Positions 365 through 12,547 of a stretch of DNA of 64,000 nucleotides are shown one piece after another. Position 1 is the first letter of the stretch; the number at the start of each line of letters is the position of its first letter. The translations under genes were made by a program, and so were the position numbers. Below the pieces are notes generated by a model, which was not told the origin of the DNA, searched no databases, and saw only the letters and a program-made list of their open reading frames with translations. Source of the stretch: Rhizobium sp. J15 (lineage in GTDB: Bacteria > Pseudomonadota > Alphaproteobacteria > Rhizobiales > Rhizobiaceae); contig NZ_NWSX01000001.1 in NCBI RefSeq assembly GCF_002531825.1, positions 186,001 to 250,000 of the forward strand, in the 5' to 3' direction.

Positions 365-3312
365 CGAGTTTCCGTCTTTCCTCCGGCGGCCGCATCGACC
401 GGGCCGCGACACTCGGCTTCACCTTCGACGGCAAGGCGCTGGAAGGCCATCCGGGCGACACGCTCGCCTCGGCGCTGCTGGCCAACGGTATCCAGCTCGT
501 CGGCCGCAGCTTCAAATATCACCGCCCGCGCGGCATTCTGACGGCGGGGGCCGCCGAACCGAACGCGCTGGTGACGACAGGCAGCGGCGGGCGCACCGAA
601 CCGAATACGCGCGCGACGATGATCGAGCTTTACCAGGGGCTGACGGCCAAGAGCCAGAACCGCTGGCCTTCGCTCGATTTCGATGTCGGCGCCGTCAACG
701 GCCTGCTCTCGCCTTTCCTCAGCGCCGGTTTCTACTACAAGACCTTCATGTGGCCGGCGGCCCTCTGGGAAAAGCTCTACGAGCCGGTGATCCGCAAGGC
801 GGCGGGCCTCGGCCGCGCCTCCTACGAAGCCGATCCCGACGCCTATGAGAAATGTTGGGCGCATTGCGATCTGTTGGTGATCGGCGCCGGCCCCACCGGT
901 CTTGCCGCGGCACTCACCGCCGGGCGCGCCGGCGCGCGCGTCATTCTTGCCGACGAAGGCGCCGAATTCGGCGGCAGCCTGCTTTCCCGCGGCGCAGTCG
1001 ACGGCAAGCCGGCGGACGCTGTTCTCGGCGAGCTGCTGGCCGAACTCGAAGGGCTGGCGAATGTGCGCCGCCTGCCGCGCATGATCGTGTTCGGCTGGTA
1101 CGACGACAATGTTTTCGGCGCGGTCGAACGTGTGCAGAAGCATGTGGCGCTGCCCGATCCCGAGCGCCCCGTCGAAAGATTGTGGCGCATCGTCGCCCGC
1201 CAGGCGCTTCTGGCGACGGGAGCCGAGGAGCGGCCGCTCGTCTTCGGCGGCAACGATATTCCCGGCGTGATGATGGCAGGCGCCATGCGCAGCTATCTCA
1301 ATCGGCAGGCGGTGGCGCCAGGCCAAAGCACGGTGATCTTCACCACCAACGATACTGCATATGACACCGCCGCCGACCTCGAAGCCGCCGGCCTTCGAGT
1401 TGCCGCGATCGTCGACAGCCGCGCCGATGGCGGCAAGGGCTGGCAGGGCCGCGCTGAGGTTCTGCGGGGCGCCCGGGTCATCGATGCAGAGGGCGGCAAG
1501 CGCCTGCGCGGCGTCAGCATCGAGACCGCAGGCGGCATTCGCCGGATCGACGCGGATGCGCTCGCCATGTCGAGCGGCTGGAGCCCGGTCATTCATCTTG
1601 CCTGCCATCGCGGCGGCAAGCCGCAATGGTCCGAGGAGTCTTCGGCATTTCTGGCGCCGGCATCACAGGACGGCCTTGCCGTTGCCGGCGCAGCCGCCGG
1701 CCTTGCGCAAACCACGGCCTGCCTCGGCGATGGCGCGGCGAAGGCCGCCGCCGCATTGCAGGCAATCGGCTTTTCAGCGGAACCGGCCTTTGTTTCAGCT
1801 CCCGAGACGGCTCCGTATGCAAAGCCGCTCTGGTCGGTGAAAGGCTCGAAGGGCAAGGCCTTCGTCGACTATCAGAACGACGTGCACCTCAAGGACCTCG
1901 GGCTTGCCGTGCGCGAAGGCTACGGCCATGTCGAGCTTGCCAAGCGTTATACCACCAGCGGCATGGCGACCGACCAGGGCAAGCTTTCCAACATCAACGC
2001 CATCGGCATTCTTGCCGAGGCGCGCGGCGTGTCACCCGCCGAAGTGGGAACGACGACCTTCCGGCCCTTTTATACGCCCGTTTCCTTCGGCGCTTTGACC
2101 GGGGCATCGCGCGGCAAAGATTTCCAGCCGGCGCGCAAATCGCCGTTGCACGGCTGGGCGAAAAAGAATGGCGCGATCTTCGTCGAAACCGGGCTCTGGT
2201 ATCGTTCTTCCTGGTTTCCGCGCGCCGGTGAGGCGACATGGCGCGACAGCGTCGACCGCGAAGTGCTGAATATCCGCAAAAATGCCGGCCTCTGCGACGT
2301 CTCGACGCTCGGCAAGATCGAAATCTTCGGTCGCGACGCCGCGACCTTCCTCGATCGCGTCTATTGCAACGGCTTCGCCAAGCTTGCTCTGGGCAAGGCG
2401 CGTTACGGCATCATGCTGCGCGAGGACGGCTTCATCTATGACGACGGCACCACCAGCCGCTTCAGCGACGACCATTTCTTCATGACGACGACGACGGCGC
2501 TTGCCGCCGGCGTGCTGACCCATCTCGAATTCTGCGCCCAGACGCTGTGGCCGGAACTCGACGTCTGCTTCGCCTCCTCGACCGATCAATGGGCGCAGAT
2601 GGCGGTTGCCGGGCCGAAGTCGCGCGCGATCCTCTCGGAAATCGTCGACGAGGATCTTTCCGATGCGGCCTTCCCCTTCATGAGCGCCCGCAAGGTGTCG
2701 CTATTCGCCGGCCACCTCGAAGGCCGGCTCTTCCGGATCTCCTTCTCGGGCGAACTCGCTTACGAACTGGCGGTGCCGGCCGGCTATGGCGAAAGCGTTG
2801 CCGATGCCATCATGGCGTCAGGCGAGAAACACGGCATCTCAGCCTATGGCGTCGAAGCGCTCGGCGTCATGCGCATCGAAAAGGGCCATGTCACCCATGC
2901 CGAGATCAACGGCACGGTAACACCCGGCGATCTCGGCTTCGGCCGCATGGTTTCATCAACCAAGCCGGATTTCATCGGCAAGGCGATGCTTGCCCGCGAA
3001 GGCCTGCAGGATCCCGAGCGCCCGCGCCTCGTCGGCGTCAAGCCGCTCAACCCGGCAAGCGGCTTCCGCACCGGCTCGCATATCCTTGCCGAGGGTGCGG
3101 CGGCGACGCTCGAAAACGATCAGGGCTATGTCACGTCGAGCGCCTTTTCGCCGAGCCTCGGCCATAGGATTGGCCTGGCGCTCGTCCGGCGCGGGCCGGA
3201 GCGCATCGGTGAGAAGGTGACGGTCTGGAACGGCCTGCACAATGAATTCACCGATGCGGTGCTCTGCCATCCCGTCTTCATCGATCCCGAAAACGAGAAG
3301 CTCCATGCCTGA
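361..3312 (+). CDS. soxA: Sarcosine oxidase alpha subunit
   Basis: A 983-residue protein, normal for the alpha subunit. The N-terminus has the ferredoxin-like FDGK...GDTLASALLANG region, followed by a Rossmann FAD/NAD-binding motif GAGPTG at about residues 175-180. The C-terminal 400 residues match the aminomethyltransferase (GcvT) fold that transfers the formaldehyde equivalent to tetrahydrofolate. It starts inside the soxD stop codon and overlaps soxG by 8 bases, so soxB-D-A-G is one operon. Long open frames on the opposite strand of this gene are GC-rich shadows. Confidence 0.96.
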   Translation: MTSFRLSSGGRIDRAATLGFTFDGKALEGHPGDTLASALLANGIQLVGRSFKYHRPRGILTAGAAEPNALVTTGSGGRTEPNTRATMIELYQGLTAKSQNRWPSLDFDVGAVNGLLSPFLSAGFYYKTFMWPAALWEKLYEPVIRKAAGLGRASYEADPDAYEKCWAHCDLLVIGAGPTGLAAALTAGRAGARVILADEGAEFGGSLLSRGAVDGKPADAVLGELLAELEGLANVRRLPRMIVFGWYDDNVFGAVERVQKHVALPDPERPVERLWRIVARQALLATGAEERPLVFGGNDIPGVMMAGAMRSYLNRQAVAPGQSTVIFTTNDTAYDTAADLEAAGLRVAAIVDSRADGGKGWQGRAEVLRGARVIDAEGGKRLRGVSIETAGGIRRIDADALAMSSGWSPVIHLACHRGGKPQWSEESSAFLAPASQDGLAVAGAAAGLAQTTACLGDGAAKAAAALQAIGFSAEPAFVSAPETAPYAKPLWSVKGSKGKAFVDYQNDVHLKDLGLAVREGYGHVELAKRYTTSGMATDQGKLSNINAIGILAEARGVSPAEVGTTTFRPFYTPVSFGALTGASRGKDFQPARKSPLHGWAKKNGAIFVETGLWYRSSWFPRAGEATWRDSVDREVLNIRKNAGLCDVSTLGKIEIFGRDAATFLDRVYCNGFAKLALGKARYGIMLREDGFIYDDGTTSRFSDDHFFMTTTTALAAGVLTHLEFCAQTLWPELDVCFASSTDQWAQMAVAGPKSRAILSEIVDEDLSDAAFPFMSARKVSLFAGHLEGRLFRISFSGELAYELAVPAGYGESVADAIMASGEKHGISAYGVEALGVMRIEKGHVTHAEINGTVTPGDLGFGRMVSSTKPDFIGKAMLAREGLQDPERPRLVGVKPLNPASGFRTGSHILAEGAAATLENDQGYVTSSAFSPSLGHRIGLALVRRGPERIGEKVTVWNGLHNEFTDAVLCHPVFIDPENEKLHA

Positions 3313-3853
3313 TCTTCCCCAGCACCGGCCGGTCCTCGCCGGCGCCAGACACAACGGTGCGGCAGGATCCGCCCTCCGGCTGGAAGCCTTGCCGGAAGGC
3401 CATCTGCTGCACGTGCTCGGCGCGATCGAGCCGGCCGCACTCGCCACCGAACTGGCGAAAGCAGGCCTTGCGAACAGTTCGATCCGCAAGGCCGGTTTCC
3501 GCCAATGGTTCATCGCCGGCGACGAACCGCTCGCGCCCGCAAAGCTCGACACCCTTACCGCAGCGCTTGCCGGAAAAGCCTACGTCATGGACCAGAGCCA
3601 TGGGCGTGTACGCATCGGCATTTCCGGCCGATCCTCGCGCCTGCTTCTTTCAAAAGGCACGGCCGTCGATCTCGATCCCGCCGTCTTTGCGGAGGACGAT
3701 TCGGCCATGACGATGATCGGCCATATCTCCGTGCAGATCGTACGCACCGGCGATGACAGCTTCGAACTCACGGTCCTGCGCAGCTTCGCCGAAAGCCTCT
3801 GGGACGAGCTCAGGCATATGGCGACGAGCGCCGAAAAGGATAGCGGCGCATAA
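3305..3853 (+). CDS. soxG: Sarcosine oxidase gamma subunit
   Basis: A 182-residue protein starting at the ATG at 3305, inside the end of soxA. A further in-frame start at 3242 would extend it deep into soxA and is unlikely. The C-terminal part (SSRLLLSKGTAVDLDP, HISVQIVRTGDDSFELTVLRSFAESLWDEL) is typical of SoxG, which resembles the GcvT fold and helps assemble the folate site. It is the last gene of the operon. Confidence 0.92.
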   Translation: MPDLPQHRPVLAGARHNGAAGSALRLEALPEGHLLHVLGAIEPAALATELAKAGLANSSIRKAGFRQWFIAGDEPLAPAKLDTLTAALAGKAYVMDQSHGRVRIGISGRSSRLLLSKGTAVDLDPAVFAEDDSAMTMIGHISVQIVRTGDDSFELTVLRSFAESLWDELRHMATSAEKDSGA

Positions 3854-4317
3854 GGGCCGCCGTGCCGGCGCAAAGATCGACGATTGAGCGAAAATAGCTG
3901 TAAGGTTCAACTTTCCGGCGCGGTGGCACGCAGCCGTTGACCGTCGAGCCAACACGAGAATTCGCTACAGTGGAGACGGTGGCGGCGAAATTTTTAGGGA
4001 CTGACGAGCAGATGGTAAGCGGTGCCCCAATCAGACCTTGTGGCAGCCTAGATAATGCCGCGAGATAATTCTTTGAGCATGATTGATCGAACCGTTATCT
4101 TGAATCGAATTCACGCTTCGACGCGGGGATCGCGAACGCCAGTAGCGAAATCATTGGCAAAGGCTGTGCGGGGTCCGAACCCAATAGGCGTTGCATCCAT
4201 CAGAGCGGACGATCAAATCTATTAGTAAATCGCGTTTGACGGCGTGGAACGGCTGAACAGTTGATAAATTTAGCCAAAATTAATTCTGAAGGCAGTAAAA
4301 GAGGGTGCTGTGAAAAG
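3854..4317. other. Intergenic region between sox operon and RNA ligase
   Basis: About 460 bases without a convincing gene. The second half is visibly richer in A and T than the sox operon, and this continues into the following ligase gene, which suggests a boundary between core and acquired DNA. No clear repeats, tRNA fragment or promoter motif was recognised. Confidence 0.5.
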
Positions 4318-5448
4318 ATGAACGACCCGATACACCCTGCACGCCAAATCCCGTTTCCCGACCTTATCGCTGGCTTGAAGCGAGCCCAAGGTCTTGGCCA
4401 TGTCCATCGCCGTCAGAACGCAACCGGTACTTTGCAGCTCTACATCTATACCCCCCGGTGCGTATATGAGGATGGTTGGGATCAGTTTTCGCTGATCGCT
4501 CGCGGTCTCATTGTGGACGAGGGCGCTGGTCGGGTCGTTGCCACGCCGTTTCCGAAGTTTTTCAATGTCGGCGAGCGGCATGGTGAAGTACCCGATCTGC
4601 CGTTTGAGGCGTTCGAAAAGCTCGATGGTAGTCTGATAATCGTGTTCAATGATGCTGGCCGTTGGCACGCAGCCACCAAAGGAGCGTTCGACTCCGAACA
4701 GGCCCTATGGGCTCAAGCACGCTTGGATGCCCACGATCTCTCCGGTCTGTCGCCGGATACGACATATCTGTTCGAGGCGGTATATCCGGAAAACAGAATT
4801 GTCGTGCGATATGCGGAGCCTGCCATGGTGATGTTGGCGGCCTACCACGCTTCAGGTCTTGAAGTAACCTACGACGAGGTTCGAACGACCAGCCAAGCGT
4901 TGGGATGGCGTGCGGCCGAACGCCATGAGTTCGGGAATATGGCGGACATGATGCTCCATACTGCAACGCTCCCAAGCGACATCGAGGGATTTGTTGTTAG
5001 ATTCACCAATGGCTTGCGCCTCAAACTCAAAGGCTCCGAGTACCGTCGTATCCATGCGTTGATCTCACGCTGCACGCCATTGGCAATGTGGGAAGCAATG
5101 GCCGCTGGGGACGACATGGCCGCGATTCGTCGTGATTTGCCGGAAGAGTTTTGGAGCGATTTTGACAACATCGTACTCCTCCTGACGAAGGAATACGCGG
5201 CGATGGAAAGGAAGGTCACTGAACTGGCAGCATCTGTCGCCCATCTTTCCGATAAAGAGTTGGGATTGTCGCTCAATTCACTGCCTGCTGACGTGGGTCC
5301 TTACGTTTTTGGCTTGCGAAAAGCAGGCGCAATCGTAGGCAGGTCAAGAGACGCGTTGATGCGTTCCATCAGACCCACTGGCAACGTGTTGCCAGGTTAC
5401 CAGCCCTCATATGCCATGGGGCGTGTGATTGATGAGGCAACATCGTAG
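4318..5448 (+). CDS. T4 Rnl1-like ATP-dependent RNA ligase
   Basis: A 376-residue nucleotidyltransferase of the T4 RNA ligase 1 type. Motif I is EKLDGS (AMP-accepting lysine about residue 101), motif III is TYLFEAVYPENRIV, motif IV is EGFVVRF and motif V is RLKLKGSEY; the upstream SLIARGLIVD and FPKFFNVGE segments are also characteristic. The family joins 5'-phosphate to 3'-hydroxyl RNA ends using ATP, typically to repair broken tRNA. The ATG at 4318 is preferred over an in-frame TTG at 4261 because a GAGGG sits upstream of it. It converges on rtcR, placing it beside an RtcB repair operon with complementary end chemistry. Base composition is less GC-rich than its neighbours, suggesting transfer. 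Confidence 0.85.
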   Translation: MNDPIHPARQIPFPDLIAGLKRAQGLGHVHRRQNATGTLQLYIYTPRCVYEDGWDQFSLIARGLIVDEGAGRVVATPFPKFFNVGERHGEVPDLPFEAFEKLDGSLIIVFNDAGRWHAATKGAFDSEQALWAQARLDAHDLSGLSPDTTYLFEAVYPENRIVVRYAEPAMVMLAAYHASGLEVTYDEVRTTSQALGWRAAERHEFGNMADMMLHTATLPSDIEGFVVRFTNGLRLKLKGSEYRRIHALISRCTPLAMWEAMAAGDDMAAIRRDLPEEFWSDFDNIVLLLTKEYAAMERKVTELAASVAHLSDKELGLSLNSLPADVGPYVFGLRKAGAIVGRSRDALMRSIRPTGNVLPGYQPSYAMGRVIDEATS

Positions 5449-5742: not shown

Positions 5743-7350
5743 TTATCCGGCTTTCCTAATATCTTCGAATCTGAGGCCGAAGCGCGCGAGATATTTACTC
5801 AGGCGATCGGCGTCGTTGCTGCTCTTTTTCTCCAGTCGCGACATCGCAAACAGGGCTCTGCCCGCAGCACTTGCCGTGGCATGTTGACGGCAAGTGTGAA
5901 GAACGGTGGCAAGCTGGGCCGTGTCGAAGCGATCGAGGCGAGCGGCCGTCTCTGCACCCAGCACTTCTTCAATGATCAGATCCACCCTGCCGTCGTCACT
6001 TGAGCTGCGCCAAAACGCATTCAGCCGCCGGACTTCATCGTCAACGACGTCGGTCGTGATGCGCCCATGCGGCGCAAGGGTCGCCATGCGGGTCACCGAA
6101 GCCGACAGGTCGCGAAAGTTGGCACTCCAGAGGGCTAACGGGCCAGTTGCGAAACTAAGATAGCGGTCGCGTGCTTCCTTGTTGAAAGTCACATTTTCGC
6201 CTTCTCGTTCCAGATAGCGCCTGAGCTCGAAGTCGAGATTGGGCTCGATGTCCTCCTTGCGCTCGCGCAGGGCCGGCAGCTGGAAAGTCCAGAGGTTCAG
6301 CCGGGCATAGAGATCTTCGCGGAACCTGCCTTTGCGCACATCCTCGCCAAGATCGCGATTGGTGCCGGCAATCAGTTGAAAGTCCGCGGACGCCTCCCGG
6401 TCAGCGCCCACGGGCAGGAACTTCTTTTCCTCGATCGCGCGCAGGCACATGGCCTGTTCGTCGAGGCCGAGTTCGCCAATCTCGTCGAGGAACAGCACGC
6501 CTTTGTCGGCGGACTTGAGCAAGCCGGCACGCTCGCCGGCAGCGCCGGTAAACGCGCCTTTCACATGGCCGAACAAGGTGGACATGGCCTGGTCGCCGCG
6601 CAGGGTCGCGCAGTTGACCTCGATGAACGGACCGCTGACCTTGCGCTGGCTCTTCTTCAGCTCGTAGATCCGGCGGGCGAGTTGCGATTTGCCGGCGCCG
6701 GTCGGGCCGGTCAGCAGAACGGGCGCCGTCGAGCGGATCACCACCCTTTCGATCTCGTTGATCATTCTGTTGAAGGCGGCGCTGCGGGTCGAAATCCCCG
6801 ACTTCAGGAAGGAGGCGGCGTCTTCGCGCTCGGAGGCGAAGCGTTTGGCGATCTCGTCATAACGGGAAAGGTCGAGGTCGATGATCCGATGCGTGCCGGC
6901 GAAATTCTGCTCCGGCTCCCGGTCCCGCGGCGGCGAGAGCTGCAGCAGCTGGCCGGGAATGATGCGGGCTTCGGTCAGCAGGAACCAGCAGATCTGTGCG
7001 ACATGGGTGCCGGTGGTGATGTTGACGAGATAGTCTTCCGTTTCGGGGTCGAAGTTGTAGTTGCGGGCAAAGTCCCTGAGGTTGGTATAGACCTCCGAAA
7101 AATCCCAGGGGTCCTTGAAGTTGATGATGTTGCTCCGCACCTCCGTTGCCGGCGCTACGGTTTCGATGTCGGCGACGATGCGGTGACAGAGAGCTTGCGA
7201 GTGGTTGTCGAGGATCAGTTCCAGCCGGTCGATGAACAGGCCCGGTTGCTGGCAGAGCGCGACATTCGGCCGCCAGCGGCTCCAGCGATTTTCCCATTTC
7301 CCCGCATCCAGGGTGGTTCCCAATATGCTAATGGCGACGCGGCGCTTCAT
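5743..7350 (-). CDS. rtcR: RtcR, CARF-domain sigma-54-dependent activator of the RNA repair operon
   Basis: A 535-residue protein. Residues 1 to about 180 match the RtcR-type CARF ligand-sensing domain (VAISILGTTLD, YLVNITTGTHVAQICWFLL). The central AAA+ domain has Walker A GPTGAGKS (215-222), the sigma-54 contact loop GAFTGA (265-270) and Walker B VLFLDE (285-290). The C-terminal region should bind DNA. In enterobacteria RtcR senses RNA ends and activates rtcBA or rsr-Y RNA-rtcBA from a sigma-54 promoter. Here it is divergent from rsr, with a matching -24/-12 promoter on the rsr side. Its 3' end faces the RNA ligase. Confidence 0.95.
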   Translation of the reverse strand: MKRRVAISILGTTLDAGKWENRWSRWRPNVALCQQPGLFIDRLELILDNHSQALCHRIVADIETVAPATEVRSNIINFKDPWDFSEVYTNLRDFARNYNFDPETEDYLVNITTGTHVAQICWFLLTEARIIPGQLLQLSPPRDREPEQNFAGTHRIIDLDLSRYDEIAKRFASEREDAASFLKSGISTRSAAFNRMINEIERVVIRSTAPVLLTGPTGAGKSQLARRIYELKKSQRKVSGPFIEVNCATLRGDQAMSTLFGHVKGAFTGAAGERAGLLKSADKGVLFLDEIGELGLDEQAMCLRAIEEKKFLPVGADREASADFQLIAGTNRDLGEDVRKGRFREDLYARLNLWTFQLPALRERKEDIEPNLDFELRRYLEREGENVTFNKEARDRYLSFATGPLALWSANFRDLSASVTRMATLAPHGRITTDVVDDEVRRLNAFWRSSSDDGRVDLIIEEVLGAETAARLDRFDTAQLATVLHTCRQHATASAAGRALFAMSRLEKKSSNDADRLSKYLARFGLRFEDIRKAG

Positions 7351-7509
7351 CTCTTATCCAAAATTATAAAACAAGCTAGTTTGCGATAATATAATCGGGA
7401 TCGGATTTTTGCAATTCATGATTGCGCTCGACTGAGGCATAAAAATTTATCTTTTAAAAACAGATGGATGAACGAAAATTTCGCCGGTCTCCCGCTCCTT
7501 TCGTCAAAC

Positions 7510-7525
7510 TGGCACGCGTCTTGAA
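7510..7525 (+). promoter_or_regulatory. Sigma-54 (-24/-12) promoter of rsr-Y RNA-rtcB
   Basis: TGGCACG at 7510-7516, four bases, then TTGAA at 7521-7525. This matches the consensus TGGCACG-N4-TTGCW except for one base of the -12 element. It lies 36 bases before the rsr start and downstream of the divergent rtcR, the expected target of that activator. The AT-rich stretch 7351-7500 holds short imperfect palindromes (around 7372, 7440 and 7480) that could be upstream activator sites, but I cannot single one out. Confidence 0.88.
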
Positions 7526-7560
7526 ATGTATCTGGCACGAACCAAACAACAGGTGCTGTC

Positions 7561-9117
7561 ATGGTCAACAAGGCAATCTTCAAAACCTACCTCGGGAAGC
7601 TGCTTCCGGGCGCGGATACAAAAAATCATGAAGCGGCCCCGGCCTACCGGCTGACGCCGCGTGAGGCGCTGGCGCAATATGCCGTTACCGGAACCCTCAA
7701 CGGCACCTTCTATGCTGAAGGAGCTGAGCAGCTCGATGCGGTAAAGACGCTCGCCCTTGAGGTCGAGCCGGAATTTCTCGCCAAGGTGGCTGTTTACGCC
7801 GCTGAGAAGGGTCACATGAAGGACATGCCGGTGACGTTGCTCGCCATGCTCTCCAGCCTTCAGAGCGATGCCTTCGCCTGTGCATTCCCGCGGGTGGTGA
7901 AGAGCGGCAAGATGCTGCGCGGCTTCGTGCAGGTCATGCGCTCTGGCGCCACCGGTCGCAAGTCGCTCGGCACACGCCCGAAAAAGGTGGTGCAGGCGTG
8001 GCTCGAGCGGGCCAGCACCGAGCAGATCCTGCGTGCGATGGTCGGAAACGATCCTTCGCTCGCCGACGTCATCCGCATGGTGCATCCGAAGCCGGCCACA
8101 GGGGAGCGCAAGGCGCTTTATGCCTGGGCGATCGGCAAGCCGCACGACTACGCGGCACTGCCGGAACTCGTCAAGGCATTGGAAGCGTTCCGACGTGACC
8201 GGACGGCGCCAGTGCCTGATGTGCCGTTCCAGATGCTGACCTCGCTGCCGTTGACGCGGGAGCATTGGGTCGAAATCGCCCGCAAGGGCGGCTGGCAGAT
8301 GGTGCGGCAGAACCTCAACACCTTTGCACGCAACCGCGTGTTCGAGGTCAAGGGTTTTGCCGAGACGCTGGCGGCGCGGCTTGCCGATCCGGAGGAAATC
8401 CGCAAGGCAAAGGTCTTCCCCTATCAGTTGATGATGGCGTGGAAGATGGTCGATGGCCAGGTTCCGGATGTCGTGCGGGATGCGCTTCAGGACGCGATGG
8501 ATATCGCCATCGCCAATGTGCCGTCCCTGACGGGCAATGTGGTGCTTTGCCCCGACGTGTCGGGTTCCATGGGCTCGCCCGTGACCGGCTACCGGAAGGG
8601 CGCGACGTCCTCGGTTCGTTGCATCGACGTCGCCGGTCTGATGACCGCGGCGTTCCTGCAGCGCAACCCGAAGGCGCGGGTGCTGCCGTTCGAGAATGAC
8701 GTAGTGCACGTCAGCCTCAACAAGCGGGATTCGGTGATGACCAATGCCGGTAAGCTGGCGAAAATCGGTGGCGGCGGAACCAACTGCTCCGCACCGCTGA
8801 AGATGCTGGCAAACGAGAGGGCCAAGGTCGATCTCGTGGTGTTCATCTCGGACAATGAGTCCTGGGTGGATGCGCGCGGCAGCGGCCAGCCGACGGCGGT
8901 GATGACGGAATGGGCCAGGATCAAGCGGGTCAACCCGGCTGCAAAGCTGGTCTGCCTCGACATCCAGCCCCACGCCACGACGCAGGCGCCGACGCGGGAA
9001 GACGTGCTCAACATCGGTGGCTTCTCGGATGCCGTCTATGGGGTGATTACGGCTTTCGCGGCCAACAGCAAGGGAGCGGATGGCTGGGTGAAAGCCATTG
9101 AGGCAATCGAGTTCTGA
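7561..9117 (+). CDS. rsr: Rsr, bacterial Ro60 orthologue (TROVE plus vWA domains)
   Basis: A 518-residue protein with an N-terminal TROVE HEAT-repeat ring (YRLTPREALAQYAVTGTLNGTFY onward) and a C-terminal von Willebrand A domain with MIDAS motif DVSGSMG (332-338) and GGTNC. Ro60 proteins bind Y RNAs on the outside of the ring and misfolded RNA ends in the centre; in bacteria they work with PNPase in RNA decay and ribosomal RNA maturation. It is the first gene after the sigma-54 promoter and is followed directly by the Y RNA array. All the landmarks of the family are intact. Confidence 0.95.
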   Translation: MVNKAIFKTYLGKLLPGADTKNHEAAPAYRLTPREALAQYAVTGTLNGTFYAEGAEQLDAVKTLALEVEPEFLAKVAVYAAEKGHMKDMPVTLLAMLSSLQSDAFACAFPRVVKSGKMLRGFVQVMRSGATGRKSLGTRPKKVVQAWLERASTEQILRAMVGNDPSLADVIRMVHPKPATGERKALYAWAIGKPHDYAALPELVKALEAFRRDRTAPVPDVPFQMLTSLPLTREHWVEIARKGGWQMVRQNLNTFARNRVFEVKGFAETLAARLADPEEIRKAKVFPYQLMMAWKMVDGQVPDVVRDALQDAMDIAIANVPSLTGNVVLCPDVSGSMGSPVTGYRKGATSSVRCIDVAGLMTAAFLQRNPKARVLPFENDVVHVSLNKRDSVMTNAGKLAKIGGGGTNCSAPLKMLANERAKVDLVVFISDNESWVDARGSGQPTAVMTEWARIKRVNPAAKLVCLDIQPHATTQAPTREDVLNIGGFSDAVYGVITAFAANSKGADGWVKAIEAIEF

Positions 9118-9138
9118 CGGGCTCACAGGAAGCAATAT

Positions 9139-9165
9139 CCCCGCGCCGCCGTGAACGGCGCGGGG
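9139..9165 (+). terminator. GC-rich hairpin between rsr and the first Y RNA
   Basis: CCCCGCGCCG (9139-9148) pairs perfectly with CGGCGCGGGG (9156-9165) around a seven-base loop, 21 bases after the rsr stop. There is no T-run, so it may be an attenuator, a 3'-end protecting or processing structure rather than a full terminator. The first Y RNA stem begins four bases later. Confidence 0.6.
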
Positions 9166-9306
9166 GGGCGTGACGAATGCCGGATGAAACTACAGATCGT
9201 TAATCTCCTGGTCGCGGGTTCGAATCCCGTCGGGTCCTCCAGTTCATGGACCCGTAGCTCAGCGGATAGAGCAGGACGTTTCACCACACCTCGTCGTCAC
9301 GGACCA
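9166..9306 (+). ncRNA. Y RNA unit 1 with permuted tRNA-like module
   Basis: The outer Ro-type stem is CGTGACGA (9169-9176) with TCGTCACG (9294-9301). Just inside comes the array signature CGAATGCCGG...ACTACA. The centre is a tRNA in permuted order: T-arm GCGGG-TTCGAAT-CCCGT (9214-9230), acceptor strand CGGGTCC (9231-9237), a ten-base cap, acceptor strand GGACCCG (9248-9254), then TA and D-arm GCTC-AGCGGATA-GAGC (9257-9272). T-loop and D-loop are canonical. There is no anticodon arm; the Ro stem takes its place. This matches the known tRNA mimicry of YrlA-type bacterial Y RNAs, and the location after rsr supports it. Ends are estimates. Confidence 0.85.
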
Positions 9307-9432
9307 ATGGAATGACATGGCGAATGCAAAGGGAACTACATCTGTGTCGCGAGTTCGAACCTCGCCAGGGCCTGGTCCTGTAGCTCAGTTGGTAGAGCAA
9401 GCTGTTTCCCGGACACTTGTCGTCATGACGAA
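9307..9432 (+). ncRNA. Y RNA unit 2 with permuted tRNA-like module
   Basis: Outer stem CATGGCGA (9316-9323) with TCGTCATG (9420-9427), one G-U pair. The signature CGAATGC...GAACTACA follows. T-arm GCGAG-TTCGAAC-CTCGC (9349-9365) is perfect; the acceptor is shortened to CAGGG/TCCTG (9366-9370 with 9376-9380) capped by CCTGG; D-arm GCTC-AGTTGGTA-GAGC (9383-9398) is perfect. It abuts units 1 and 3 with almost no spacer, so the units probably arise from one precursor. Ends are estimates. Confidence 0.83.
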
Positions 9433-9568
9433 GATTGCAGCGGCGAATGCCGGACGGAACTACAGCTCCAAAGTTGGATGGTCTGGCAGGTTCGACTCCT
9501 CCTGGGCATACGCTCTCTGGCACGAGCGGGGCCATCCGGTTTCGTCCATCCTCGTCGCCGCTGCAAGC
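9433..9568 (+). ncRNA. Y RNA unit 3 with partly decayed tRNA-like module
   Basis: The longest outer stem in the array: TTGCAGCGGCGA (9435-9446) pairs perfectly over 12 bases with TCGCCGCTGCAA (9555-9566). The signature CGAATGCCGGACGGAACTACA follows. A T-loop TTCGACT (9491-9497) sits on a weak stem (AGG/CCT), and a D-arm GCTC-TCTGGCAC-GAGC (9512-9527) keeps its stem and loop GG. The acceptor stem is not clear. The TAGCTCAG box found in units 1, 2 and 4 is lost. Ends are estimates. Confidence 0.78.
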
Positions 9569-9569
9569 T

Positions 9570-9582
9570 CCTGCCACGCAGG
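9570..9582 (+). other. Small hairpin between Y RNA units 3 and 4
   Basis: CCTGC (9570-9574) and GCAGG (9578-9582) can pair around a CAC loop. It lies between two Y RNA units and could be a processing signal or a weak pause site; it is short and may be chance in GC-rich DNA. Confidence 0.35.
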
Positions 9583-9738
9583 AACGGACTACCCCGGCGA
9601 ATGCCGGCAGGACTACAGGGAAAGAGCGGCCCCTCGGATTTCCGGTGGGCAGGTCGGGTGTTCAAATCATCCCGTGTTTCCGAAAGGAGCACGTAGCTCA
9701 GTAAATTGTCCTGTCAGATCTCGTCGTCGGGGTGATGA
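9583..9738 (+). ncRNA. Y RNA unit 4 with tRNA-like module lacking a normal D-stem
   Basis: Outer stem CCCCGGCGA (9592-9600) with TCGTCGGGG (9724-9732), one G-U pair. The signature CGAATGCCGGCAGGACTACA follows. T-arm GGGTG-TTCAAAT-CATCC (9656-9672) is intact with one G-U; the acceptor is an eight-pair stem (9673-9680 with 9686-9693) capped by CGAAA. TAGCTCAG follows at 9694-9701, but the GAGC partner of the D-stem and the D-loop GG are missing. Ends are estimates. Confidence 0.8.
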
Positions 9739-9852
9739 AGACAGCCTGGGCGAATGCCGCCGGTGACTACAGGGGCCGCATCGCGCCATGATCATGGAAT
9801 GCGTGCGGCGAGATGGATCTCCAGCAATGCTCGTCGCCCAGGCGGTGTGAAG
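9739..9852 (+). ncRNA. Y RNA unit 5, no tRNA-like module
   Basis: Outer stem GCCTGGGCGA (9744-9753) pairs perfectly over 10 bases with TCGCCCAGGC (9834-9843). The signature CGAATGCCGCCGGTGACTACA follows. Inside there is no T-loop or D-arm; instead CCGCA (9776-9780) pairs with TGCGG (9804-9808), and CCATGATCATGG (9786-9797) is a perfect palindrome. It therefore resembles a minimal Y RNA. It ends about 40 bases before rtcB. Ends are estimates. Confidence 0.78.
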
Positions 9853-9894
9853 AGACGCAACGGAACAAGAAGGACTGCAGACGCAGAAAAGACG

Positions 9895-11313
9895 ATGATA
9901 GTGGTAATGAGCGGACAGGATTTGATCGATGCCGGCATGAGCCAGGGGAAGTGGTTTCGCCCGGCTCTCGACGCGGCCAACGCGGTTTTGAGCAAGGGTG
10001 GCTCGGTAACCGATGCGCTGGAGGCGGCAAGGGCCTTCCAGCCCGGGCCGACGCTCGCCTTGAGGGCCGATAACGATATCGAGATCTATTCCAATATCCG
10101 CGCCGAGAACGCCTTCGAGCAGGACAATGTCGAGAAGGTCAACGCGACGATGCGGGCGCTGGTGCGCACGCCGGTCGTCCGGGCCGCGGCGATCATGCCG
10201 GACGCCTGCCCGGCCGGTCCGGTTGGAACGATCCCTGTCGGCGGCGTAGTGGCGTCCGAAGCGATCCATCCGGGCATGCATTCGGCCGATATCTGCTGCT
10301 CGATGGCGATCTCGATCTTTCCTGGCGTCGATCCGAAGTCGCTCCTGGATGCCGTGCACGCCGTGACGCATTTCGGTCCCGGCAGCCGTCCCCGCGGTGC
10401 GCAGATCAAGCCGTCCGAAGCGACGCTTTCGGCCTTCCAGCAGAATCCCTATCTGCGCGACGGGGCGCTGAGCGCCGGCATCGAGCATTTCGCCACCCAG
10501 GGCGACGGCAATCATTTCGCCTATGTCGGGACGATGAAGTCGACCGGTGAAACCGCCCTTGTGACCCACCACGGATCGCGAGCGCCGGGCGCACGTCTCT
10601 ACGATAGGGGCATGAAGGTCGCCAACCAGTTTCGGGAGCGCATTTCGCCCGAGACGCATCGGGAAAATGCCTGGATTCCGGCGGATACCGAGGAAGGTGA
10701 CTTCTACTGGTCGGCGCTGCAGACGATCCGCCAGTGGACGAAAGAGAACCACTATGTCCTTCACGACATGGCGACGGAAAAACTCTCGGCCAAGGTCGCG
10801 GACCGCTTCTGGAACGAGCATAATTTCGTCTTCCGGAAGTCGGACGGGCTGTTCTACCACGGAAAGGGTGCCACCCCTGCCTTTGACAACTGGGCGCATG
10901 ACGCGACCGATCTGACCATCATTCCGCTCAATATGGGGGAACCGATCCTGATCGTTCGCGGCTCGAACGCTGCCCATAGCCTCGGCTTCTCGCCGCATGG
11001 CGCTGGCCGCAACTTTTCGCGCAGCGCGCATATGAGGCAGTTGTCTGCGGAGTATGGAGCGGATTCGCGGGGGCTCAGCCCGAACAACATCGCGGCTATT
11101 CTGGAGAAGGAAACGAGCGGTCTGGACGCGCGGTTCTTCTCTGGTTTCGCCGATGTGTCGGAACTGCCGAGCGCCTACAAGAGCGCTGCGAACGTACGGG
11201 CGCAGATCGAGCACTACGGCTTGGCCGAAGTGGTCGACGAGGTGATCCCCTACGGGAGCATCATGGCCGGCGACTGGCAGAAGAACGCGCCCTGGCGCAA
11301 AAAGCGTCAGTGA
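9895..11313 (+). CDS. rtcB: RtcB-family RNA ligase (divergent subtype)
   Basis: A 472-residue RtcB homologue; the alternative start at 9907 removes four residues. RtcB seals 2',3'-cyclic or 3'-phosphate ends to 5'-hydroxyl ends with GTP and Mn. The metal and guanylylation residues seem conserved: D132 and C135 (ADICC), H207 (GDGNHF), H225 (THHGSR), H309 (NEHNFVFRK) and the GMP-accepting H368 in SPHGAGR. The usual MPDVHxGKG motif is replaced by MPDACPAGP and GVDIGCG by SADICCS, so this is a distinct subfamily. It closes the rsr-Y RNA-rtcB operon. No RtcA cyclase is seen next to it. Confidence 0.92.
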   Translation: MIVVMSGQDLIDAGMSQGKWFRPALDAANAVLSKGGSVTDALEAARAFQPGPTLALRADNDIEIYSNIRAENAFEQDNVEKVNATMRALVRTPVVRAAAIMPDACPAGPVGTIPVGGVVASEAIHPGMHSADICCSMAISIFPGVDPKSLLDAVHAVTHFGPGSRPRGAQIKPSEATLSAFQQNPYLRDGALSAGIEHFATQGDGNHFAYVGTMKSTGETALVTHHGSRAPGARLYDRGMKVANQFRERISPETHRENAWIPADTEEGDFYWSALQTIRQWTKENHYVLHDMATEKLSAKVADRFWNEHNFVFRKSDGLFYHGKGATPAFDNWAHDATDLTIIPLNMGEPILIVRGSNAAHSLGFSPHGAGRNFSRSAHMRQLSAEYGADSRGLSPNNIAAILEKETSGLDARFFSGFADVSELPSAYKSAANVRAQIEHYGLAEVVDEVIPYGSIMAGDWQKNAPWRKKRQ

Positions 11314-11318
11314 AGCAT

Positions 11319-11348
11319 GGGGGAAGGCAACCAGGCTTGCCTTCCCCC
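11319..11348. terminator. Strong hairpin between convergent rtcB and cpaF-like gene
   Basis: GGGGGAAGGCAA (11319-11330) pairs perfectly with TTGCCTTCCCCC (11337-11348) around CCAGGC. It begins five bases after the rtcB stop and lies between two convergent genes, so it probably terminates or protects transcripts from both sides. There is no long T-run on either strand. Confidence 0.75.
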
Positions 11349-11398
11349 GACGCACCATGCCGGACAGACAGTTCCCGGGTCGCGTTCGCCAACAGGCT

Positions 11399-12547
11399 TC
11401 AAGCCGTTGCCCGCGCTTCGGCTTCAGCCTTCACCCATTCGGGGTGTTCACCGTCCGCTATCTCTTCCATCGCATCGGCAGCAAAGCTCGGCACCACGCC
11501 GGTCCACAGCAGTGCGCCATCGGAATTGGAATGGCCGTCGCCTTCCAGCTTGTAGATGCTCTCGACGATATACTGGCCGTCGTCGTTGAGGCCCTTGATT
11601 TCGGAAATCTCGATCACCCGGCGTCTGCCGGTACGCTTGAAGCGGGCGATCTGTACGACGACGTCGACGGCGGAGGCGATCTGGGCGCGTAGCGGCCGGA
11701 GCGGCATGTCGATATCGGACATCAGCGCCAGCGTCTCCAGCCGGTGCAGAGCGTCGTAAGGCGTGTTGGCGTGTACCGTCGAAAGGCTGCCGCTGTGACC
11801 GGAGGTCATCGCCTGGATCATATCGAGCGCCTCGCCGCCGCGGCATTCGCCGACGATGATGCGGTCGGGCCGCATGCGCAGCGACGAGCGGAACAGATCG
11901 CGGATGCTGGCGCCGCCGCGGCCGAAGCGGTCGGGTTTGGTCACTTCGAGATAGACCACGTGCTCCTTGCGGATCTGCAGTTCAGAGGTGTCTTCGATGA
12001 CGATGATGCGCTCGTGATCGGCGAAGGCTTCCGATAGCGCGTTCAGCATCGTCGTCTTGCCGGTGCCGGTGCCGCCGGAGATGATGACGTTCTTCTGCAG
12101 CCCGACGGCCGCCTGTAGCAGCGACAGCGACTCCTCGGTCAGGCTGCCCTGAGTGACGAGATCGCGAATGCTGCGATGTTCTTTCAGAAAGCGGCGGATG
12201 GAGATGCAGAGCCCGGTGCGGGCGGCGGGCGGCTGGATCATCTGCACGCGCGAGCCGTCCGGCAGGCGAGCTTCCACGCTCGGCTCCTCCGGCGTCAAGC
12301 GTTTGCCCGAGAACTGCGCGATGCTGCGCGCGGCCGATTCCAGATCCTCGCGGCTGGCAAAACGCGTATCGGCGCGTTCGAGCTTTCCCCGCCGTTCGAC
12401 GAAGATGTCGGAAGTCCCGTTGATCAGGATTTCGGAAACGCTCGGGTCCTCGAGAAGGAAGCGGATCGGCCCGAGCAGCTTGTCCAGCGCCCGGGTCAGG
12501 ACCTGGAAGGTCGCCTGCTCGGCGGCATCGTCGGAAACGGCCTTCAT
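11399..12547 (-). CDS. CpaF/TadA-type secretion ATPase
   Basis: A 382-residue type II/IV secretion ATPase. It has the N-terminal CpaF region (LEDPSVSEILINGTSDIFVERRGKL), Walker A GGTGTGKTT (158-166), the Asp box EDTSELQI, Walker B RPDRIIVGECRGGEALDM and the His box TGHSGSLSTVHANT. The ATG at 12547 overlaps the stop of the upstream small gene as TGATG; an open frame continues upstream but would run through that gene. It is divergent from the Tad cluster, which has its own FHA-fused ATPase, so this is a second motor of unclear partner. Confidence 0.92.
   Translation of the reverse strand: MKAVSDDAAEQATFQVLTRALDKLLGPIRFLLEDPSVSEILINGTSDIFVERRGKLERADTRFASREDLESAARSIAQFSGKRLTPEEPSVEARLPDGSRVQMIQPPAARTGLCISIRRFLKEHRSIRDLVTQGSLTEESLSLLQAAVGLQKNVIISGGTGTGKTTMLNALSEAFADHERIIVIEDTSELQIRKEHVVYLEVTKPDRFGRGGASIRDLFRSSLRMRPDRIIVGECRGGEALDMIQAMTSGHSGSLSTVHANTPYDALHRLETLALMSDIDMPLRPLRAQIASAVDVVVQIARFKRTGRRRVIEISEIKGLNDDGQYIVESIYKLEGDGHSNSDGALLWTGVVPSFAADAMEEIADGEHPEWVKAEAEARATA

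Follow-up and report, generated by a model that had tools for sequence, protein, structure and literature searches.

The gap between rsr, the gene for a Ro60-like ring protein, and rtcB, the gene for an RNA ligase, in Rhizobium sp. J15 raises the question of what a bacterium does with several Y RNA-like units set side by side, and whether these are copies of one RNA or RNAs with different roles. The gap lies in the 64,000-nucleotide stretch analyzed here (positions 186,001 to 250,000 of the forward strand of contig NZ_NWSX01000001.1), hereafter the window, in which a first-pass annotation made from the letters alone had noticed a tandem array of five such units. We find that the head of unit 4 is a circular permutation of a whole transfer RNA (tRNA) that differs from the permutation in the known bacterial Y RNA YrlA, with the two halves of the D-stem flanking the head. 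On sequence evidence, the array as a whole consists of bacterial Y RNAs, with unit 2 being YrlA, unit 1 a YrlA-like RNA just below the Rfam cut-off, and units 3–5 new head variants.

The five units of the array

The array spans positions 9169–9846 of the + strand in tandem between rsr and rtcB, with spacers of 14, 4, 20 and 6 nucleotides (Table 1), the annotated coordinates being correct to within about 10 bases. Using a parser that defines a unit by its 5′ motif, the sequence CTACA, its 3′ motif and a closing stem, we recover all five claimed units, none of which has a mismatch to the docking motifs CGAATGC, CTACA and CTYGTCG accompanying the closing stem. Out of 300 dinucleotide shuffles of the window gap, 276 give no unit, 24 give one and none gives two or more as against the five of the real gap; shuffles of all the gaps studied below yield one unit in 12 of 200 cases and never two. 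The units are just 0.52–0.65 identical to one another, and the compensatory stem changes between them that the annotation had pointed to are confirmed. Their relatives in other genomes form classes Y1–Y5 (see below), in which covariation across species goes beyond shuffles for Y1, Y3, Y4 and Y5 (Y2 was not counted). The exception is a single measure out of the five, that of further pair types, which 4 of 500 shuffles attain for Y1 and 26 of 500 for Y3.

The annotation had also proposed a covariance comparison with Rfam, which holds for one unit and fails for four: the gathering cut-off of the YrlA model RF02553 (69 bits) is passed by unit 2 alone. Neither RF02553 nor a model of Y4 finds a unit outside the array in the genome of Rhizobium sp. 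J15. An identity of the array as transfer-messenger RNA (tmRNA) is rejected, as it matches at 18.4 bits against a cut-off of 47 and the true alpha_tmRNA of the genome sits elsewhere (304.8 bits). An ordinary tRNA gene is likewise rejected, with ARAGORN calling none in the window.

A cloverleaf opened at the D loop

The permutation of unit 4 was overlooked in the first-pass annotation, as were the T-arm and D-like hairpin of unit 3 and the non-tRNA head of unit 5. The class alignments used here were made from hand-picked subsets with near-copies thinned (A1, 26 of 43 units; A2, 30 of 44; A3, 28 of 40; A4, 31 of 39; A5, 20 of 21). Given the 31 Y4 sequences and no structure, RNAalifold returns a permuted cloverleaf above the docking stems, which runs in the order of a GAGC half of the D-stem, 1 nucleotide, a 7-pair anticodon-like arm, 5 nucleotides, a 5-pair T-stem with a 7-nucleotide loop, an 8-pair capped acceptor stem, 2 nucleotides and the GCTC half that completes a D-stem of 4 pairs. 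The lengths of these elements are those of tRNA, except for the longer anticodon arm and an acceptor stem of 8 instead of 7 pairs. Overall, 96.0% of the cells of the alignment are paired and changes on both sides are seen in 21 of 39 pairs; none of 500 shuffles reaches any of the five covariation measures, and sliding the pairing partners abolishes the signal. The D-stem is paired in 100% of the cells, with one A-U to C-G change kept, and two in an alignment of more distant units (A7, below). In the Y4 unit of L025 (7183–7325) and in L151:3353–3486 the D-stem reads GCGC/GCGC, like that of a tRNA-Pro of the window genome. In the standard numbering of tRNA positions involved in tertiary contacts, U8, A14, G15, G19, A21, G46, C48, T54 and U55 are constant in all 31 sequences.

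We typed heads by T-arm and D-stem rules: in type I the docking stem takes the anticodon position, and in type II the T-arm lies between the two halves of the D-stem. None of 192 shuffled heads falls into either type, and Y4 heads are type II in 36 of 39 cases. Further, 38 of the 39 Y4 units (L040 was left out) were rejoined into the order of tRNA by a cut in the acceptor cap and a join at the D loop. With an insert in the anticodon loop allowed, ARAGORN recognizes a tRNA in 32 of these 38, compared to none of the 38 unrejoined units, none of 760 mononucleotide shuffles and 5 of 420 constructs with other cut points. When the rejoined window unit is compared to 42 tRNA entries from 30 loci of its own genome, the nearest are 65–68% identical, the best being tRNA-Pro (68%). 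Together with the GCGC D-stem seen in L025 and L151, this likeness makes that tRNA-Pro a possible origin of the type II heads.

The heads of the other units

Units 1 and 2 of the window are both type I. Across their classes, Y1 is type I in 41 of 43 units and type II in 1, and Y2 is type I in 16 of 44 and retains only a T-arm in 27. In Y1, with a fold backed by consensus folding and covariation, the docking stem replaces the anticodon arm and is followed by the T-arm, a capped acceptor hairpin and the D-arm. A residual anticodon stem in Y1 was considered and is unsupported: in tRNA register, its 16 distinct strand pairs form a mean of 3.44 of 5 pairs, which lies within the range of shuffled partners (mean 3.19, highest 3.50), and just 3 Y2 units were readable in this respect.

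The Y3 head combines a T-arm, GGTTCGACTCC, with a conserved GCTC-TCTGGCAC-GAGC hairpin and has no acceptor stem. Two pairs of its T-stem covary, the hairpin is nearly invariant, and 39 of 40 units are typed as T-arm only. The Y5 head is formed by a long hairpin (9775–9809 in the window), with a fold again backed by consensus folding and covariation, and a T-arm is absent from all 21 Y5 units; the head of unit 5 is without tRNA likeness.

Arrays in Rhizobium and its relatives

The annotation regarded five contiguous units as unusual, a view that the relatives contradict. We compared the window with the loci of 39 relatives, giving 40 gaps with distinct sequences (L032 was left out as its contig stops after rsr). 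All 40 rsr–rtcB gaps carry 3–7 parsed units, 192 altogether: three units in 9 gaps, four in 4, five in 16, six in 8 and seven in 3. A multi-unit array is ordinary in Rhizobium and its relatives. Clustering at a distance of 0.32 (0.42 and 0.36 merged classes) gives 43 Y1, 44 Y2, 40 Y3, 39 Y4 and 21 Y5 units plus five small odd ones, with Y1 present in 40, Y2 in 39, Y3 in 40, Y4 in 29 and Y5 in 21 of the 40 gaps. The order Y1-Y2-Y3-Y4-Y5, with missing or doubled slots allowed, holds in 38 gaps and is broken in L017 and L023 by an extra Y1-like unit between Y2 and Y3; clusters were joined partly by position (four for Y2, two each for Y1 and Y5), so that only in the principal clusters of Y1, Y3, Y4 and Y5 is the claim of order independent of position. 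L029, L035 and L038 include odd units that lie outside the order test, L029 having also a second Y1-like unit 5′ of Y2.

The annotation further suggested that the units furnish an interchangeable set, which is doubtful given the near-constant order and the conservation of heads by class. For the first copy of a class in each gap and stretches of 8–89 nucleotides (which takes in 38 of 40 Y1 heads), mean pairwise head identity is 0.86 for Y1, 0.59 for Y2, 0.87 for Y3, 0.78 for Y4 and 0.79 for Y5, while spacers between classes are 0.45–0.68 identical and shuffled sequences 0.51–0.56 (heads) and 0.37–0.53 (spacers). By this comparison of head sequences with spacers and shuffles, slot 2 is variable and the other slots are constrained.

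Plasmid pA of Rhizobium etli CIAT 652 carries this array with 97.0% identity, whereas the R. etli strains CFN42 and CE3 do not figure among the 47 plasmid records listed. Eleven plasmid records of R. phaseoli (H46–H56) match just 69–70% of the window gap, while four others (H18–H21) match all of it; thus, unit content varies within one species. In L036 (R. phaseoli) and L024 (R. esperanzae) Y5 is wholly and Y4 almost wholly missing, as if by a single deletion. Nearly headless Y RNAs, which consist of hardly more than the docking stem with a small loop, are seen as units Yj and Yk of L029 and L038, at L147:3944 and in further units that have 45–60 nucleotides between the motifs. In 13 loci the Rfam model at its cut-off finds 7 matches, as compared to 68 parser units, some of which are possibly false.

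Spread beyond the 40 gaps

At E ≤ 0.001 the Y4 model (R1) has matches, many of them weak, in 70 of the 297 genomes searched in this order. We inspected its regions in the 20 strongest genomes other than that of the window, leaving out matches weaker than E 3.7e-9, and in all 20 the match is near an rsr homologue: 19 lie just downstream on its strand and one (L132) upstream. R1 finds rsr-adjacent units independently of rsr. In L132 the Y RNA-like match (3788–3922) is upstream of the gene for a distant Rsr (23% identity; rsr at 2251–3390), both being on the minus strand. The distribution of rsr is itself patchy: the gene occurs in 19 of 100 genomes from the genus, in 6 of 337 sampled from the class and in 12 of 349 sampled from the phylum, each count including the window genome; weak rsr matches in genomes G305 and G117 were left out of the locus set.

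A further 27 loci, comprising 19 of the 20 R1 loci and 8 from the rsr surveys, were parsed with a lowered score limit. One of them, L113, which was also counted among the 20 R1 genomes, is the contig of L004 again, so that without it there are 26 loci with 108 units, 9 of type II. In 25 of the 27 there are 2–8 units and in two a single one. The 113 units of these loci are type I in 36 cases, type II in 10, T-arm only in 31 and without a T-arm in 36. Alignment A7, to which L113 does not belong, brings together 14 type II units. Four come from the 40 gaps and 10 from the further loci; among these 10 are L119, L120 and L151, which automatic typing missed and which were chosen by eye. Its consensus is again the permuted cloverleaf, with changes on both sides in 22 of 36 pairs, a level that none of 500 shuffles reaches, and its units come, by family labels, from at least six families: that of the window, four more of its order and one of another order of the class. 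After rejoining, ARAGORN recognizes 7 of the 12 units that come from loci other than those of the 40 gaps, or 9 of 14 when the window and L113 are included, as compared to none of 14 unrejoined units and none of 280 shuffles, 40 of which were without a cut point. Two of the five uncalled distant units, L128 and L149:4007, lack an acceptor hairpin in which a cut could be made. L128:4304–4458 and L149:4007–4162 show a further permuted form, with a long insert before the D-stem half, an AAGC/GCTT D-stem and a T-arm, the acceptor hairpin being unclear.

Operon context

As the annotation held, the Y RNA-like units adjoin a homologue of Ro/Rsr in an RtcR/sigma-54 operon with RtcB, which is borne out by phmmer, Foldseek and family matches. 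The product of rtcR scores 818.6 bits with NCBIfam RNA_repair_RtcR (cut-off 650), and rtcR adjoins rsr in all 41 loci (the window and 40 relatives). In each of these the sequence TGGCACGNNNNTTGCA, with at most 2 mismatches, is found 50–54 bases 5′ of rsr; the sigma-54-type site counts as evidence because of this conserved position, the pattern alone being not beyond chance in 64 kilobases.

By its sequence the window Rsr is divergent, scoring below the cut-offs of both Pfam TROVE (20.5 vs 23) and NCBIfam Rsr (85.4 vs 900). As Pfam TROVE misses it at E ≤ 0.001, the Rsr protein itself was used as the query for relatives. It matches the Deinococcus radiodurans Rsr (2NVO) over most of its length with phmmer (E 5.5e-24). 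An AlphaFold2 model (predicted local distance difference test 81.1, predicted template modeling score 0.76) has 2NVO as its best Foldseek match (E 3.5e-17), with places 1–13 all being Rsr, Ro60 or TROVE structures.

Downstream, rtcB lies 3′ of the gap in 40 of 41 loci, the remaining contig stopping earlier. No terminator-like or sigma-70-like pattern is seen on the + strand in 7360–11400, and thus a single transcript is likely. The hairpin at 9139–9165 scores as terminator-like on the minus strand, and a hairpin is present 5′ of Y1 in all 15 loci inspected. The window hairpin may set the Y RNAs apart from the rsr message. Just past rtcR a T4 RnlA-family RNA ligase is encoded (4318–5448; PF09511 E 3.1e-14, TIGR02308 below cut-off). 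We reject it as a part of the system, as just 2 of the 41 loci have it in the flanking sequence examined.

Table 1. Y RNA units, elements of the unit 4 head and flanking features, in window coordinates
Feature	Position	Strand	Remarks
Unit 1 (Y1), YrlA-type Y RNA, type I	9169..9301	+	outer stem 8 pairs; Rfam YrlA 63.5 bits
Unit 2 (Y2), canonical YrlA, type I	9316..9427	+	outer stem 8 pairs; Rfam YrlA 82.2 bits
Unit 3 (Y3), T-arm and D-like hairpin	9432..9569	+	outer stem 14 (of 15) pairs; Rfam YrlA 21.5 bits
Unit 4 (Y4), D-loop-opened (type II) permuted cloverleaf	9590..9734	+	outer stem 11 pairs; Rfam YrlA 22.6 bits
Unit 5 (Y5), docking stem and non-tRNA head	9741..9846	+	outer stem 12 (of 13) pairs; Rfam YrlA no match up to E 1
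Y4 3′ half of D-stem (GAGC), 5′-most in head	9624..9627	+	pairs with 9696–9699
Y4 anticodon-arm-like hairpin, 7-pair stem, 8-nucleotide loop in window	9629..9650	+	double changes in all 7 pairs; pairing in 92.6% of cells
Y4 variable region AGGTC, 5 nucleotides (tRNA 44–48)	9651..9655	+	G46, C48 in 31/31
Y4 T-arm, 5 pairs, loop TTCAAAT	9656..9672	+	T54, U55 in 31/31; C56, A58 in 30/31
Y4 acceptor-like hairpin with GAAA cap	9673..9693	+	double changes in 7 of 8 pairs; pairing in 92.3% of cells
Y4 U8 A9, 5′ half of D-stem (GCTC), A14 G15, 3′ end of head	9694..9701	+	U8, A14, G15 in 31/31
rtcR, sigma-54 activator of RNA repair	5743..7350	-	divergent from rsr; PF06956 E 8.4e-79
Sigma-54-type promoter site TGGCACG-N4-TTGAA	7510..7525	+	exact pattern match; about 51 bases 5′ of rsr
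rsr, Ro60-like ring protein	7561..9117	+	Pfam vWA_Ro60 E 2.9e-20
G+C-rich hairpin between rsr and array	9139..9165	+	12-pair stem; T tract absent from this strand
rtcB, RNA ligase	9895..11313	+	PF01139 E 3.6e-29

Relation to known systems

In the form modeled by Rfam, YrlA is a tRNA shape minus the anticodon arm. The Salmonella YrlA structure 6CU1 has been described as a circular permutation of tRNA (ARTEMIS, PMC11472068), and YrlA is treated as a permuted tRNA in PMC13355120 as well. The array resembles YrlA (RF02553; 6CU1) in its docking motifs, its stem and its place beside rsr and rtcB, and units 1 and 2 share the circularly permuted tRNA-like head. In contrast, units 3, 4 and 5 fall well short of the Rfam cut-off. 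The head of unit 4 has its permutation at the D loop and retains an anticodon-arm-like hairpin, and that of unit 5 has no likeness to tRNA.

The Salmonella operon rsr-yrlBA-rtcBA, which is induced by tRNA fragments (PMC7790460), likewise joins an RtcR activator, a sigma-54 promoter, rsr, Y RNAs and rtcB as one unit. It differs in having two Y RNAs (PMC7790460), as compared to five with class-specific heads in the window, where the next identified gene after rtcB codes, on the other strand, for a T2SSE-family ATPase (no search for rtcA was made). The window Rsr has the same fold as the Rsr of the Deinococcus Rsr-Y RNA-PNPase complex (RYPER), whereas its operon offers several different heads. 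Permuted tRNA-like parts also recall the alpha-proteobacterial permuted tmRNA (RF01849), but the true tmRNA of this genome is located elsewhere. Neither a D-loop-opened Y RNA nor a five-unit array is mentioned in the literature searched, which did not cover the primary papers on bacterial Y RNAs and is weak evidence of absence.

What the array may do

Building on the observed sequence, covarying structure, order, conservation and gene context of the array, we consider it likely that it supplies five non-equivalent Y RNA adaptors for Rsr from one RtcR/sigma-54-driven transcript. We infer that this transcript is processed into single RNAs that bind Rsr and bring it to partners, and that both permutations are in use. 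The rsr–rtcB gap would then give five separate Y RNAs offering a common docking stem to the Rsr ring, so that any one ring could carry one head out of five. The first two units would act as YrlA-type tRNA mimics with Rsr placed where the anticodon arm would be; unit 4 would attach Rsr via the D loop, leaving the side of the anticodon arm free and the ring pointing another way; unit 3 would contribute its T-arm and D-like hairpin and unit 5 its non-tRNA head. YrlA is described as tethering Rsr to PNPase, thereby altering the choice of substrates of the latter, and its head as being modified by the tRNA enzymes DusA and TruB (PMC8394870). These facts, together with the response of the Salmonella operon to tRNA fragments (PMC7790460), are the basis on which we propose a fixed set of heads that could place the ring on different tRNA faces. 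Such a fixed adaptor set, four of its members with tRNA-like parts, might couple Rsr to different tRNA-handling partners, the candidates being PNPase and enzymes that modify or repair tRNA, during the response of the operon to broken tRNA. We give an even chance to the broader proposal that at least two circular permutations of tRNA evolved as Rsr adaptors and are kept together in one ordered operon with the ring directions differing, as a programmed set that links RtcR sensing, Rsr surveillance and RtcB ligation.

Several results weigh against this reading. With respect to unit 4, the controls on the Y4 fold, the sliding one among them, are biased towards it because the structure is derived from the same alignment; G18 is kept in just 24 of 31 sequences; the anticodon arm is longer than that of tRNA; without an anticodon-loop insert only 10 of 38 rejoined units are called, and 6 of 38 are never called; and the minimum-energy fold of the window unit alone consists of anticodon-like, T and acceptor hairpins with the D-stem unformed. 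With respect to the array, units 1, 3, 4 and 5 lie below the Rfam cut-off; a false parser match is expected in about 6–8% of gaps, and a few units, such as the third of L035, have weak motifs; the slot-2 head drifts almost freely (0.59 vs 0.51 when shuffled); and Y4 is absent from 11 and Y5 from 19 of the 40 gaps, so that neither is essential to the system. Moreover, the folding energy of the whole array is unexceptional (z −1.37, with 3 of 20 shuffles equal or better), and for units 1–5 singly z is −1.04, −0.05, −4.04, −3.81 and −2.20. Folding energy thus carries little weight as evidence for the array as a whole or for its first two units, and the evidence for the units is accordingly comparative and not energetic.

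Among the alternatives, the tRNA-shaped heads might be decoys that soak up a nuclease or a tRNA-binding enzyme and so shield tRNAs, with no need for a tether to Rsr. The anticodon-arm-like hairpin that Y4 adds, absent from YrlA, would suit such a function, and competitive inhibition of an anticodon nuclease has been proposed for YrlA (PMC7790460). However, the anticodon loop of Y4 is conserved neither in sequence nor in length and every unit retains the docking stem, hence Rsr still matters, and we regard this explanation as unlikely. It is quite unlikely that the units are redundant YrlA copies with drifting heads that merely raise the amount of Rsr-stabilizing RNA. While their common docking stem, their variable number of 3–7, the partial match of the 11 R. 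phaseoli plasmid records and the hardly conserved slot-2 head agree with an effect of dosage, the heads of Y1, Y3, Y4 and Y5 are 0.78–0.87 identical across genera, above the spacers, and keep covarying helices and a nearly fixed order, with the units of the window being mutually dissimilar.

An array that remains uncut and acts in the rsr–rtcB mRNA as a Rsr-binding leader or spacer controlling rtcB would account for the confinement of the units of this genome to the one gap, the presence of rtcB after it in 40 of 41 loci and the lack of an internal promoter or terminator pattern. Salmonella YrlA and YrlB, which the layout of their operon (PMC7790460) puts in the same place, are nevertheless separate RNAs. 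Also against such a cis element are L122–L124, from another family, where 5–8 units follow rsr with the rtcB query unmatched within 8–8.5 kilobases, and L132, where the match precedes rsr; together these points make it very unlikely. It is extremely improbable that unit 4 derives from the decay or rearrangement of a tRNA gene and has no present role, despite the 65–68% identity of its rejoined form to the nearest tRNAs of its own genome, tRNA-Pro at their head. Across families, the compensatory changes and the constancy of tertiary positions imply selection on the Y4 structure, its closed acceptor end makes a tRNA end impossible and the docking stem is kept.

If the preferred reading of five non-equivalent Rsr adaptors with two permuted forms is true, type I and type II heads point the Ro ring differently on tRNA-shaped bodies. 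A second form of Y RNA, in which a complete cloverleaf is opened within the D loop, shows that selection acts on the tRNA shape itself, and the two forms allow a direct comparison of which face of the tRNA Rsr covers. With five fixed heads available to one ring, head swapping offers a simple test of tether, gate or decoy. The disparity between Rfam matches and parser units further suggests that searches with the Rfam model only undercount Y RNAs.

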